Assembly (NCBI GenBank): GCA_017307375.1
Contig: JAFKFH010000013.1
Coordinates: forward strand, 1 to 64,000
Source of the DNA: Alphaproteobacteria bacterium
Lineage (GTDB): Bacteria > Pseudomonadota > Alphaproteobacteria > Ferrovibrionales > Ferrovibrionaceae
Length of the DNA stretch: 64,000 nt
Reading direction: 5' to 3'
Shown piece after piece: positions 10,595 to 23,733 of the stretch. Each line of letters opens with the position of its first letter. Positions within the stretch are counted from its first letter, which is position 1. A program made the position numbers and the translations under genes. The notes beneath the pieces are model-generated. The model did not search any database. It was not told where the DNA came from and was given only the letters and a program-made list of their open reading frames with translations.

Positions 10595-12007
10595 ATGTCT
10601 GCCGCGTTTCTGACTGCCGACGACCGCTCGACCTGGATCGTCAAGGAATCCGACCACGACCGCCGGGTCCTGTGGACCGTGGTAATCTTCGCCTCGCTGC
10701 TGGTCCATGTGCTGATCCTCACCTTCGGTCTCGAGGAAATGCCGTGGAAGCAGGTGCCTGAGGAGCCGCCGGTGGTGGTCGAGCTGGTGCAGGAACCGCC
10801 GCCCCCGCCGCCCCAGCCCCAGGCCCGTCAGCCGACGCCGCCGCGCGTGACGCCGCAGCCGCGGCCCGAAGCGGCGAAGCCGGCGCCCGAGCCGCCCAAG
10901 CAGGAAGCAGCCAAGCCCGAGCCCAAGCCGGAACCCGAACCGAAGCCCGAGCCCAAGCCGCAGCAGGAGCAGCAGCGGCCCGAGCAGCGCGAAATCGCGC
11001 TGCCCTCGGAGATCGAGCCGGAAAAGACGACCGAGCGGCCGCGGATGGGCGAGAAGCCGATGCCCAATCCCGGCAGTGACGTGCCCAAGCCGCCAACTCA
11101 GACCCAGGCCGCCGGCGGGGGCGGATCGCCGCCGCCGCCGCCGGCCGAGGCGACCCCACCCGAGCCGACGCCCCCGCCCACCCCGGCAGCGGCGATGCCC
11201 GAGCCGGCGCCCGCCCCGGCCCCGCCGCCGGAACCGGCCCCGGCGCCCGAGCCCAAGCCGGAGCCCAAGCCGGAGCCCAAGCCCGTTCAGCAGGCCGCGC
11301 TGCCGCCCGAGGAACTGGCGGGCGACATTCCGACGCCGCGGGTCCGCCCGGTCGAAGCCATCCAGGAGCGCGAGCGGCAGGAGCGCGAGGAGAAGGAACG
11401 CGCCGACCGCGCGGCGCGCGAGAAGGCCGAGCGCGAGCGGGCGGAACAGCAGAAGGCCGAGCAGCAGCGCCGGCAGCAGCAGCAGCAGCAGCAGGCCGCG
11501 CGACAGCAGCCCCAACAGCAGCAGCGCCCGCAGCAGCCCTCCCAGGCCGCGCCGAAGACCGATGCCTGGGGCTATTCGCTGGGCAGCGACGGCCGCTTCT
11601 CCAACAATTCGCGCAGCGCGGCGGCCGCGGCGGCAGCGGCCGACGATGACGGCGGCGAAGGCGGCGGTGCCGCGGCCCGCCGGTTGTCCGACTATATCCT
11701 TGGCCAGATCGTCAAGGTCTGGGCCTTCGACTATCGCAGCCCGCGTTATCGCGACGCGGCGATCACGCTGGACGTGATGATGAACGCCGACGGCACGCTG
11801 ACCTCGCCCTTGGGCAAGAGCGATCCGTGGTCACCGCGCCAGATGGTCTACAATTACGACCGTCTGGGTCCGGACGAGCGCCTGGTGATGGACAGCTTCC
11901 TGATCGCCCTGCGCCGCGCCCAGCCGTTCAAGGTGCCGCAGGCGGATGCGGCAAGGGGCGACTGGCCGCGTGCCCTGCGCTTCGCCTTCAATTTCCGCGA
12001 TCTCTGA
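10595..12007 (+). CDS. TonB/TolA-like energy-transducing protein
   Basis: A 470-residue protein with a short cytoplasmic start, one transmembrane helix (about residues 26-45), a very long Pro/Lys/Glu/Gln-rich periplasmic spacer (about 55-345, including PEPKPEPKPEP runs and a Gln tract) and a compact C-terminal domain (about 375-470, RRLSDYILGQIVKVW...RALRFAFNF). This layout is that of TonB or TolA, which transmit proton-motive-force energy to the outer envelope. No exbB/exbD or tolQ/tolR is nearby, so partners are elsewhere. Upstream candidates for translation start inside the metallo-hydrolase gene were rejected in favour of ATG with GAAGG upstream. Confidence 0.75.
   Translation: MSAAFLTADDRSTWIVKESDHDRRVLWTVVIFASLLVHVLILTFGLEEMPWKQVPEEPPVVVELVQEPPPPPPQPQARQPTPPRVTPQPRPEAAKPAPEPPKQEAAKPEPKPEPEPKPEPKPQQEQQRPEQREIALPSEIEPEKTTERPRMGEKPMPNPGSDVPKPPTQTQAAGGGGSPPPPPAEATPPEPTPPPTPAAAMPEPAPAPAPPPEPAPAPEPKPEPKPEPKPVQQAALPPEELAGDIPTPRVRPVEAIQERERQEREEKERADRAAREKAERERAEQQKAEQQRRQQQQQQQAARQQPQQQQRPQQPSQAAPKTDAWGYSLGSDGRFSNNSRSAAAAAAAADDDGGEGGGAAARRLSDYILGQIVKVWAFDYRSPRYRDAAITLDVMMNADGTLTSPLGKSDPWSPRQMVYNYDRLGPDERLVMDSFLIALRRAQPFKVPQADAARGDWPRALRFAFNFRDL
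10795..11545 (+). repeat. Low-complexity Pro/Lys/Glu/Gln coding repeat
   Basis: Within the TonB/TolA-like gene, imperfect repeats of CCCAAGCCGGAG-type codons (PKPEPKPE) and CAG runs encode the extended periplasmic spacer. Such tracts can change length by slippage. Confidence 0.7.
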
Positions 12008-12043
12008 TCGACCGGCCGGCGCGGGAATGGTCTACTGGCGCCC

Positions 12044-12313
12044 ATGAGCCTGCCGTCCAATCCCGACCTTGAATGGGCGAACCTGTCCCGGATGCTGGAC
12101 GAGGCGGCACGCCAGCAGCGCCAGTTGCGGGCGCTCGCCGCCCGCGCGGTGGCCGCGCGCCGGGTTTCAGCCGACCTGATCGAGCGCTTGACCCGCGCCG
12201 ACGGCTATGCGGCGGAACTCGCCGACCGCCAGCTCGAACTGCTCCGGCGAATCAGCGAGGGCCATGGCAAGGCCGGCACGCTGGGCCAGGCACGCGATAC
12301 CGACGGGGACTAG
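12044..12313 (+). CDS. Small alpha-helical protein of unknown function
   Basis: An 89-residue soluble protein not recognised. It is rich in Ala, Arg, Leu and Glu and is predicted by eye to be almost entirely helical or coiled-coil (LSRMLDEAARQQRQLRALAARA, then LIERLTRADGYAAELADRQLELL), without signal peptide or cysteine. It begins 36 nt after the TonB/TolA-like gene on the same strand and may be co-transcribed. It is kept as a gene because codon use resembles its neighbours and the frame fills the gap, but no function is claimed. Confidence 0.5.
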   Translation: MSLPSNPDLEWANLSRMLDEAARQQRQLRALAARAVAARRVSADLIERLTRADGYAAELADRQLELLRRISEGHGKAGTLGQARDTDGD

Positions 12314-12318
12314 GCCGA

Positions 12319-12513
12319 TCAGCGATCGCACGCCTCGCGCCAGGTCTGATTGTGGCGCAGCACCCCCTCGGCCGTGCGCTGCGTAAGCAGGTCTGCCCGG
12401 CTGACGAAGATCGGGCGCGCCAAGGCGCAGTAGTCAGTCCCTTGACCAGTCGCGGCGCAGCCGGTCAGCAGCAGCGCCGTCAGGCAGGCGATCGATTGCG
12501 CGATCGACGTCAT
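12319..12513 (-). CDS. Rz1-like small lipoprotein (putative o-spanin)
   Basis: A 64-residue protein with a lipoprotein signal (LTALLLTGC, lipid-carrying Cys19) and a tail of the form C-x-x-A-R-P-I...S-R-x-D-x-L-T...H-N-x-x-W-x-x-x-C, a pattern I associate with small proteins next to phage lysozymes. Its 5' part overlaps the 3' part of the preceding gene (12434-12673) in another frame, as Rz1 overlaps Rz in phage lysis cassettes. Its likely role is outer-membrane disruption in the last lysis step (inference). Confidence 0.6.
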   Translation of the reverse strand: MTSIAQSIACLTALLLTGCAATGQGTDYCALARPIFVSRADLLTQRTAEGVLRHNQTWREACDR

Positions 12514-12673
12514 TGCGCGTCTCCACGGAGAGGATTGTCGCCTCGAGGGCATCGATGCGGACGGCGTCGCCGCCGGCACCATAGAGCCAGGTACCGGCGG
12601 CAAGCGCTGCCCCCGTCGCCAGCGCGGCAAGCAGGATGCGTATCCCGCCCCCCGCGATCAGCCAGGCCGGCAT
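12434..12673 (-). CDS. Rz-like small membrane protein (putative i-spanin)
   Basis: A 79-residue protein with one N-terminal transmembrane helix (about residues 9-31) followed by a charged helical tail (RIDALEATILSVETRNDVDRA). Its ATG follows the TAG stop of the endolysin gene without a gap, so it is translationally coupled to it. Size, topology and the out-of-frame overlap with a lipoprotein gene fit an inner-membrane spanin; homology itself is not evident. Confidence 0.55.
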   Translation of the reverse strand: MPAWLIAGGGIRILLAALATGAALAAGTWLYGAGGDAVRIDALEATILSVETRNDVDRAIDRLPDGAAADRLRRDWSRD

Positions 12674-13399
12674 CTAACCGGCCCGCCGGCGCAGCATGTA
12701 CCAGATGCCCGTCGCGGCAGCGGCCGCAAGCAGGCCGATGGCGACATGCGGATTGATCCCGGCCTTGATCAAGGCCTCGTGCACCCCGCCGACCTGGACG
12801 ATGGCCTGTTGGGCGACCGTCGCGGTCGCGACGATCGAGCCGCCGATCCGAGCCATCGGTGCAACCGGGTCGGCCGACGGAACCACGACCGCCGCGCGGG
12901 TACGCTGGGGATCGGTCGCCTGCTCCTCGGCGGTCGGTTGCATGTAGAGGGCAGCCTCGACCGCGCGCCGGCGGGTCAGGCCGTTGAGCACCACCAGATC
13001 GCCTTTCGCATTGCGGCCCTTGTTCCACAGCGCGAAGGCCCGGGCCGCCCCGGCGCGGTCGCCGGAATTGTGGAGGCGCAGAACCGACGAACCGATGAAT
13101 CCTGCACGCCCGATGTTGAACCGCAGGCTGACCATCGCGGCGAACTCGTTGTCGTTGGCCGGACGGATCAGCGCGGACGAGACGTCGCCCTCGGCCTCGT
13201 CGAGATCGAGGTCGAGCAGCCGGTCGGCTTCGGCCGGCGTGACGGTCGAGCCGGCATGGACGTCGGGACCGGTATGGCCCCAGCCGATCGTCCAGACGCC
13301 CGACGGGCAGAGATAGGCCTTGAGCGCCGGTCCGCCGCCCGGCCCCTGCTCGAACTCGTGATACAGCGCCAGCCCGGCCGCATTGGTGTTGCGGGGCAT
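12674..13399 (-). CDS. Phage-type lysozyme/endolysin (GH24) with C-terminal membrane anchor
   Basis: A 241-residue muramidase of glycoside hydrolase family 24. Residues 10-45 carry the active site: Glu15/Glu17, Cys31 and Thr37 in the C-x5-T pattern typical of phage 21/P22-like endolysins (CPSGVWTIGWGHTG), with a few extra glycines between Glu and Cys. NDNEFAAMVSLRFNIG and LVVLNGLTRRR are further family landmarks. The C-terminus (about 212-234) is a hydrophobic helix followed by RRR, so the enzyme is membrane-anchored or carries a holin-like segment. ATG follows GGGAG. It heads a three-gene lysis cassette without any phage structural genes nearby. Confidence 0.82.
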   Translation of the reverse strand: MPRNTNAAGLALYHEFEQGPGGGPALKAYLCPSGVWTIGWGHTGPDVHAGSTVTPAEADRLLDLDLDEAEGDVSSALIRPANDNEFAAMVSLRFNIGRAGFIGSSVLRLHNSGDRAGAARAFALWNKGRNAKGDLVVLNGLTRRRAVEAALYMQPTAEEQATDPQRTRAAVVVPSADPVAPMARIGGSIVATATVAQQAIVQVGGVHEALIKAGINPHVAIGLLAAAAATGIWYMLRRRAG

Positions 13400-13424
13400 C
13401 GTGATCTCCCATGTGCTTGAAATG

Positions 13425-13451
13425 AAAAAAGCCGCCCCTGCCGGTGGCGAC
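13425..13451 (-). terminator. Intrinsic terminator-like hairpin before endolysin gene
   Basis: On the minus strand a 6-bp GC stem (GTCGCC / GGCGGC, 9-nt loop) is followed directly by six T residues, about 25 nt before the endolysin start codon. It can end transcription coming from tRNA-Pro upstream, or act as an attenuator for the lysis genes. Confidence 0.55.
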
Positions 13452-13464
13452 CCTCAAACGCAAT

Positions 13465-13519
13465 GCGCCCGGCGGGAGCGGTCTCCAGCCGGGCGCAGGG
13501 CTTCGATCCTGGAAGGATC
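13465..13519 (-). other. Two successive RNA hairpins in the endolysin leader
   Basis: Two inverted repeats lie between tRNA-Pro and the endolysin: a 9-bp stem GCGCCCGGC/GCCGGGCGC with an inner GGAG/CTCC match (13465-13496), and CGATCCT/AGGATCG (13503-13519). Together with the terminator-like hairpin at 13431-13451 they form a structured leader. No known RNA family is recognised. Confidence 0.4.
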
Positions 13520-13628
13520 GTCAAATCCGGGGGCGACTGTCAATGACAAAGTTCTTGTTTTGTTCCATAACTGCCAAATACACGAGTGGCAGGACCGCCG
13601 CTTAAACGACTGAATTTCAAGGGTTTGA

Positions 13629-13705
13629 TGGTCGGAGCGACTGGATTTGAACCAGCGACCCCCAGTCCCCCAGACTGATGCGCTACCAGGCTGCGCTACG
13701 CTCCG
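13629..13705 (-). tRNA. tRNA-Pro, anticodon GGG
   Basis: A 77-nt cloverleaf on the minus strand: acceptor stem CGGAGCG/CGCTCCG with discriminator A and an encoded CCA end, D arm GCGC/GCGC with GGTA loop, anticodon arm TCAGT-CTGGGGG-ACTGG giving anticodon GGG, variable GGGTC and T arm GCTGG-TTCAAAT-CCAGT. It reads proline codons CCC/CCU. Confidence 0.95.
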
Positions 13706-13796
13706 ACCGTGGGGGGCGGTTTAGACCAAACCCAGTCGCCCGGCAAGGTGAAAAGTGGTTATCATCGCGGGTCGGGCCGGCCGTCGGGGGAGCAAG

Positions 13797-14234
13797 ATGT
13801 CATCTTGGGTCGAGAGTTACCGCGGGGTCGTCACCGCTGGCGAATACGATGCGGAAGCCAGCATGAATTCCAGCCTCTACGTCACCCGATTCGACCAGGC
13901 GACCTGGATGCTGCTGCACGAAGTCGGTATGACGCCGGCCGGCTTGCGCGCCGACGGCCAGCGGATTGCCGTTTTCAGACAGTATTACCGGTTCCTGCGC
14001 GAATTGCGCGGCGGCGACCTGGTCGTGATCCGGTCGGCCTTCATCGCGGTCTCGGCCCGCCATGCCCGGTTCATCCATCGAATGACAGACCGTGCCGACG
14101 GCACGCTGGTCGCCACCGCCGACTATACCGGCGGACTTGCCAGCCTGACGACCCAGCAGACCGTGCCGCTGCCCGAGGCGGTACGCGTCAAAGCCGAGGC
14201 GATGGTGATCAGGGAGGCGGCCGAGCCGGCCTAG
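13797..14234 (+). CDS. Hot-dog-fold thioesterase-like protein
   Basis: A 145-residue single hot-dog-domain protein resembling 4HBT-type acyl-CoA thioesterases: YRGVV at the start, [13 protein letters not shown], and [20 protein letters not shown]. The usual catalytic stretch D-H-x-G-H-x-N is replaced by DAEASMN, so enzyme activity is uncertain. The ATG at 13797 has GGGGGAG just upstream and is preferred to a start 14 codons earlier. Its 3' end overlaps the convergent merR gene by 4 bp. Confidence 0.7.
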
Positions 14235-21540: not shown

Positions 21541-21583
21541 AATGCCGAAAGAAAAGCCCGCCGGTCGATCGACCGGCGGGCTT
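21541..21583 (-). terminator. Rho-independent terminator of hppA
   Basis: A perfect 30-nt palindrome (AAGCCCGCCGGTCGA and its complement, 21554-21583) 20 nt after the hppA stop, followed on the minus strand by TTTTCTTT and a second T-run. Confidence 0.85.
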
Positions 21584-21603
21584 GCGTCAGTTGGCCGCAG
21601 CCT

Positions 21604-23733
<2,130 letters not shown>

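Follow-up and report, generated by a model that had tools for sequence, protein, structure and literature searches.

Gene content and layout of the locus

The window analyzed here, a stretch of 64,000 nt on contig C29 of an alphaproteobacterial genome (7.54 Mb in 41 contigs), carries three genes of phage lysis type on its minus strand. The first (12674-13399(-)) encodes a GH24 endolysin of 241 aa with a C-terminal anchor, matching PF00959 in Pfam (E=2.7e-34, residues 23-148) and the endolysin family phrog_7 in PHROGs (E=2.2e-47). The second (12434-12673(-)), whose ATG starts on the base directly after the endolysin stop, encodes an Rz-type i-spanin of 79 aa with an N-terminal hydrophobic segment (hydropathy 1.72) and a match to phrog_1026, an Rz-like spanin (E=1.2e-4, PHROGs). 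The third (12319-12513(-), with its ATG at position 12513 and its stop ending at 12319) encodes an Rz1-type lipoprotein, or o-spanin, of 64 aa, which features an LLLTGC lipobox and matches phrog_1275, likewise an Rz-like spanin (E=7.9e-15; query 12319-12510, without the first residue). This gene overlaps Rz by 80 nt and is read in the +1 frame relative to it. The locus contains, in order, the elements of an Rz/Rz1 lysis cassette: a gene for a muralytic enzyme, followed by i-spanin and o-spanin genes. Because endolysin, Rz, and Rz1 recur in the same order in IMG/VR contigs and twice elsewhere in the genome, the arrangement is not a product of chance. A preliminary description of the window had proposed a membrane-anchored endolysin, an Rz-like gene following it without a gap, and an Rz1-like lipoprotein gene overlapping Rz out of frame, all of which are borne out.

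Three further features lie between the endolysin gene and the host genes upstream. A phage-type control element (13452-13545(-)), recovered by a covariance model, carries a TTGACA box 48 nt before a hairpin at 13465-13496. A second hairpin (13425-13455(-)) with a U6 run, terminator-like by eye, appears in the fold of 13400-13540. The third feature is a tRNA-Pro(GGG) gene (13629-13705(-)), an ancestral neighbor and putative integration site, which ends 230 nt upstream of the endolysin. The cassette thus adjoins a tRNA as first described, and the statement that no capsid or integrase gene is nearby also stands: whole-genome family searches returned no match for HK97 capsid, tail sheath, or tyrosine integrase on C29. 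Neighbors within 1-19 kb, for the most part identified by eye, resemble host genes (a branched-chain ABC transporter, TonB-like, thioesterase, merR, ihfA, fabH, and plsX). On the downstream side, an 89-aa orphan gene (12044-12313(+)) has its stop 5 bp from that of Rz1. Searched as a possible phage piece, it gave no Pfam match and a best PHROGs value of 0.038, and in 20 other genomes it found weak matches at most, none of them clear.

The endolysin, its membrane anchor, and the question of a holin

Residues E15, E17, C31, and T37 of the endolysin are invariant in all seven aligned sequences, with C31 and T37 aligning with the Asp and Thr of "YQDSVGIWT" in PDB 8app. We take these four columns to be the catalytic positions and assume that Cys at the C31 position is able to replace Asp; judged by its residues, the enzyme looks active. 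Among 19-residue segments, hydrophobicity peaks in the one beginning at residue 218, whose mean hydropathy of 1.60 only just reaches the usual threshold for a membrane segment. The structure model contains helices at 190-212 and 217-240, at low confidence (mean pLDDT 57.3, too low for a fold search).

No holin was recognized in the cassette among open frames of at least 25 aa in 12000-13800. Across the same frames, hydrophobic stretches of at least 1.4 occur in the three cassette genes and in one 54-aa frame, with no others. This small frame (12167-12331(-)) overlaps the end of Rz1 and lies antisense to the orphan gene at 12044-12313(+). The small membrane genes upstream of the other cassette copies matched no holin family above the curated cut-off; the one in L021 has a weak XhlA match (E 0.0025).

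A related arrangement was observed in G013, a genome of the same family. There, at L010:470-1513, a phrog_873-type endolysin has a C-terminal region related to that of the window endolysin, a resemblance that is weak when the region is taken alone (45% over 73 aa, E=0.057); in the genome search with the window endolysin, the G013 enzyme scored E 4.7e-9 to 2e-8. Next come a gene for a related Rz (46% over 82 aa, E=1e-20) and, overlapping it, an Rz1-like frame; near-identical stretches are present on three contigs (L010, L008, and L012). Because G013 pairs a related anchor, Rz, and Rz1-like frame with an enzyme of phrog_873 type, anchor and spanins seem to move as a set that can be joined to different enzymes.

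A phage-type control element in the leader

The leader of the cassette resembles sequences in the resident prophages. BLAST against the C38 prophage identified two places, L014:4737-4790 (76% over 55 nt, E 0.003) and L065:12286-12336 (73% over 52 nt, E 0.15), both running in the direction of the phage genes; one of 60 shuffled leaders matched as well as E 0.003. In the C30 prophage, a corresponding hairpin was located with a regular expression (L062:15406-15442(-)). A covariance model, R1, was built from the window leader and these three prophage elements (two from C38, one from C30), and a second, R2, from the three prophage elements only, leaving the window sequence out. With E-values that are rough for both models, R1 run over the whole genome returned its four members, found by construction, and a fifth place at C38:360206-360298 (E 7.4e-4), everything else scoring E≥0.6, while R2 found the window leader with 51.4 bits (E 6.2e-9 in 332 kb), followed by the fifth place (26.8 bits, E 0.0023) and by window positions 21544-21625 (24.6 bits, E 0.0073). 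By eye, the last is a plain terminator following a gene, with no TTGAC box before its hairpin.

The copies of the element, at C38:46237-46329(+), C38:64687-64779(+), C30:214402-214491(-), C38:360206-360298(+), and window 13452-13545(-), share a tight geometry. From the TTGACA or TTGACT box to the hairpin, the distance is 48 nt in the window, in both C38 prophage elements, and in the fifth place, and 47 nt in C30. The window and both C38 elements also have another TTGAC 19 nt beyond the first, and two stem pairs of the window hairpin show compensatory changes relative to C38. The hairpin at 13465-13496 has a z of -4.76; for each of the four hairpins folded, none of 200 shuffles folded as well.

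At the four places other than the window, the element stands before late phage genes. The C30 element precedes a terminase small subunit gene (phrog_83), with another short frame between, and the element near C38:360k precedes a terminase small subunit gene (phrog_57), followed by genes for the terminase large subunit and a major head protein; these genes belong to a further phage region in the genome (L179, C38:352000-371000). Of the other two C38 elements, one lies about 0.7 kb before the terminase large subunit gene and the other before a phrog_8917 gene of unknown function. Such an element was not seen directly before the lysis genes of the resident prophages themselves. We interpret the control element as a putative late promoter whose leader carries a hairpin. 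In the stretch from the tRNA to the cassette, a promoter scan detected no sigma-70-like site; by eye, the window TTGACA box has no recognizable -10 hexamer 17 nt on, and only the fifth place has a clear -10-like hexamer (CATAAA) at the expected spacing.

The second hairpin, with its U6 run, is located 25 nt before the endolysin ATG. A terminator scan of the leader listed part of the first hairpin and not the second, and it produced no more terminators than in shuffled sequences. Rfam gave no match to the leader at E≤1; besides the tRNA, two matches below gathering score fell outside it (npcTB_6715 inside the endolysin gene, E 2.5e-4, and 5_ureB_sRNA, E 0.13). A DNA search of the genome with the leader returned, apart from itself, matches of 18-29 nt only. 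In viral contigs, two exact pattern scans yielded no match and one match (L131), respectively, the latter apparently due to chance. A composite pattern of two TTGAC boxes and a hairpin arm, suitably spaced, yielded five stretches, two of them being the C38 prophage and three lacking a hairpin. The hairpin pattern yielded 29, of which two were the same C38 places and 27 lacked the full element. With these strict, exact patterns over viral contigs, the control element was not found outside this host.

Sister cassettes in resident prophages and sequence conservation

Two further copies of the cassette are present in the genome, at C38:69835-70557 and C30:190252-190974, with endolysin identities of 74% and 72%. 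Both belong to prophages. The C30 prophage contains genes for integrase, terminase, portal, and HK97 capsid, together with one weak tape-measure match (phrog_167, E 1.7e-4); the C38 prophage contains integrase and terminase genes, and the one gene there that was examined as a possible tail gene matched nothing in PHROGs. Among IMG/VR contigs, L018 matches C30 at 99.3% identity and L020 matches C38 at 100%, over about 10.4 kb in each case, with L019 as another relative; all three derive from one metagenome. The C30 prophage (L013) and L019 adjoin a closely similar DMT-type permease gene, which suggests a shared integration site.

The prophage cassettes and the three viral contigs share with the window the same three genes in the same order, a 241-aa endolysin (70-74% identity), and the Rz/Rz1 overlap. 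They differ in their surroundings: the C30 and C38 copies are situated behind late-region genes and immediately preceded by one or two small genes, whereas the window copy has the control element and the tRNA upstream. By BLAST, DNA similarity of the window cassette spans 12327-13413 toward C38 and 12383-13409 toward C30, that is, the genes plus 10-14 nt of the ribosome-binding region.

All three frames of the window cassette are open. In a four-way DNA alignment, the only gap of the window copy inside the cassette is 1 nt long and falls between frames, at the junction of the endolysin stop and the Rz start; one further gap lies in the hairpin-free flanks of the copies. Comparing the window copy with the three prophage copies gives a Nei-Gojobori dN/dS of 0.30-0.33, against 0.17-0.22 for comparisons within the latter group. 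In an unpolarized count, codons unique to the window copy comprise 27.2 synonymous and 22.8 nonsynonymous changes, vs pooled counts of 39 and 9 in the other three copies (Fisher p 0.005). When changes were polarized by three outgroups, the branch of the window copy received 7 amino-acid changes, the stem shared by the other three copies 8, and each tip 2-3, so much of the excess in the window copy reflects a longer path. The unpolarized count had pointed to relaxed selection on this copy; the polarized count did not, and the idea was dropped. Because the frames are open without an excess of amino-acid change, the unit is either recent or kept; recent arrival and maintenance both fit these alignments.

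The tRNA-Pro site across related genomes

A merR match was detected in 51 of the 61 genomes searched, including the present one. Thirty merR loci were examined, one being the window, and tRNA-Pro(GGG) is found in 22 of the 29 from other genomes; judged by this distribution, the tRNA is the ancestral occupant of the locus. Its 3' side differs among most of the 22 loci (L105 and L107 look alike), and no lysis gene was noticed beside tRNA-Pro in the 0.4-1.3 kb of each that was read by eye. At E≤0.001, 56 of the 60 other genomes have no match to the endolysin. In the four that do, the match lies on contigs other than that of merR (G013 and G020) or 2.2 Mb away (G029), or the genome has no merR match (G030). 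Accordingly, this search of 60 relatives, all from other genera, did not reveal the cassette at the same site, and the conservation at the tRNA that the preliminary description had proposed to look for was not encountered there.

In a wider draw, at least 18 of 385 genomes of the class, the present one included, match the endolysin at E≤1e-20, with up to seven candidates scored per genome. Among 25 endolysin-type places in other genomes, three have a tRNA in their flanks: tRNA-Asn (L115), tRNA-Pro(TGG) (L126), and tRNA-Pro(GGG) (L124). The last (L124/L134) is from G235, a member of another alphaproteobacterial family, in which a different GH24 gene (L134:2172-2915(+)) occupies the same junction of merR and tRNA-Pro(GGG). 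This gene is N-terminally extended with a hydrophobic stretch and convergent to the tRNA-Pro (L134:3267-3344(-)), and no Rz or Rz1 was noticed with it. In G139, a GH24 place with an internal stop lies near a tRNA-Pro(TGG).

No att-like repeat of the tRNA 3' end was found in the window by BLAST of 13561-13740 against it, the longest non-self match being 14 nt. We therefore only infer integration at the tRNA. Absence of the cassette from sister strains combined with att-like repeats at its edges had been named beforehand as the mark of a recent prophage remnant; the absence was seen, in 60 relatives of other genera, and the repeats were not.

Origin of the unit and alternative explanations

In our assessment, the locus is a complete phage-type lysis transcription unit left on the 3' side of tRNA-Pro(GGG) by a lost prophage, with a probability of roughly 0.7. 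The preliminary description had offered two origins, a prophage remnant or service to a gene transfer agent (GTA). The former is well supported by the same cassette in two resident prophages, a leader of late-gene type, and a variable junction 3' of the tRNA-Pro; the latter is not supported by the evidence given below. As cassette and leader are both phage-like, a whole phage-type transcription unit would have been stranded at the tRNA. Its source would be a lost, diverged member of the phage lineage whose prophages still reside in the genome, a phage that would have integrated at the tRNA and then shed its remaining genes, leaving the unit at the variable side of the tRNA-Pro. If the unit is expressed, its endolysin may gain access to the wall through its C-terminal anchor with no need of a classical holin, as has been reported for M4Lys, after which Rz and Rz1 would disrupt the outer membrane. 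Since the resident prophages have similar control elements in front of their late genes, the unit, if its putative promoter is active, might be switched by their late regulation and not by the host.

Several observations count against a remnant left by a prophage. There is no att-like repeat of the tRNA end; no other phage gene is recognized beside the unit, and Rz1 ends 5 bp from the next stop; no empty site was seen among the genomes searched, the other ones all being of other genera; the promoter scan picked up no sigma-70-like site, the element was not seen directly before the resident lysis genes, and the unpolarized codon count shows an excess.

There is some chance, a small one, that the unit is wired to the resident prophages. 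Because the control element it carries is of the kind found in these phages ahead of late genes, switching in trans is thinkable: a late regulator may turn the unit on, adding an anchored endolysin and spanins without a holin to prophage lysis, or lysing cells for an element that has no lysis genes of its own. Such expression in trans and a host role akin to that of the DLP12 lysis genes are both possible in principle. The host role would make the unit a domesticated module kept for controlled autolysis, wall turnover, or release of vesicles or DNA, which we regard as unlikely. Three open frames, a sole cassette gap of 1 nt at the endolysin/Rz junction, dN/dS below 1, and similarity confined to the three genes, the ribosome-binding site, and the control element would suit it, as would an endolysin layout reported to be holin-independent in M4Lys (PMC8943055) and the precedent reported for DLP12 (PMC7918800). 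However, the cassette was not found here in the relatives searched, which are of other genera; the control element is phage-like, not host-like; and the signature of purifying selection may have been acquired while the genes were still part of phages.

It is improbable that these lysis genes, though unlinked, serve a GTA, a tailocin, or a defective phage encoded at another place in the genome. GTA_TIM (PF13547) is absent at E≤0.001, the Caulobacter control being positive, and the single HK97 capsid (PF05065) of the genome lies inside the C30 prophage, so that the search for a GTA structural cluster elsewhere, which had been proposed at the outset, revealed none of the RcGTA type. The single tail sheath belongs to an element that is Mu-like by eye (L060-L061, C13:148000-187000) and has an amidase, a cell-wall hydrolase, and a DUF2730 protein. 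On these three grounds, GTA_TIM, capsid, and sheath, a GTA link was abandoned as the leading idea. The C30 and C38 prophages own copies of the same cassette, and the Caulobacter GTA is reported without a holin-endolysin homologue (PMC13236601). What speaks for unlinked service is the report that endolysin and holin of RcGTA are unlinked from its structural cluster (PMC8601537), the resemblance of the control element to those of the resident prophages, which makes co-expression thinkable, and the element before the terminase of the phage region at C38:360k. A Type 10 secretion system is very improbable. These systems are reported to derive from phage lysis cassettes, with holin and hydrolase as the conserved core and spanins in some cases, and to export a partner protein (PMC13284979). 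The window has the same protein classes apart from a recognized holin, which this core comprises, and no secreted chitinase or toxin gene was noticed by eye beside the cassette.

The remnant is real and largely explained: a whole lysis unit survived its phage. It offers a clean case of a lysis operon outliving the phage along with its control element. Because phages with this cassette and with related control elements persist in the genome, cross-talk between the stranded unit and the prophages is directly testable, and the GH24 enzyme could be used to probe holin-independent lysis. If the unit is silent, it is ordinary genome debris.

Comparison with known systems

Phage lambda controls its late genes through pR', tR', and Q, which are a late promoter, a leader terminator, and an antiterminator, respectively. 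The window is comparable in sequence order only, having a promoter-like box, a short leader with one or more hairpins, and then the lysis genes.

Among gene transfer agents, RcGTA (lysis genes rcc00555/rcc00556) is reported to have its endolysin apart from the structural genes, like the window. RcGTA additionally possesses a holin and a GTA cluster, whereas the genome studied here lacks GTA_TIM and its only HK97 capsid is that of a prophage.

In layout, the window endolysin is the same as Enc34 ORF39 and its homologue M4Lys, in which an N-terminal catalytic domain is reported to be joined to a C-terminal membrane domain of two helices, and Rz- and Rz1-like genes follow the Enc34 endolysin as they do here (PMC8943055). 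M4Lys is reported to lyse without a holin via this membrane domain, and full-length Enc34 ORF39 is reported to be toxic (PMC8943055). The catalytic domains differ, PHA02564 in Enc34 and M4Lys vs GH24 in the window, and holin-independent lysis is reported for M4Lys, whereas for the window it is suggested by layout.

As the window probably does, DLP12 of E. coli K-12 retains an intact lysis operon (essD, ybcS, and rzpD/rzoD) from a defective prophage, and deletion of its lysis module is reported to increase vesicle production (PMC7918800). DLP12 keeps a holin and has a tested host effect, whereas the window unit, known from its sequence, has no recognized holin and no other recognized phage gene. 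In both, intact lysis genes persist without a functional prophage, and DLP12 is the closest precedent for a kept cassette.
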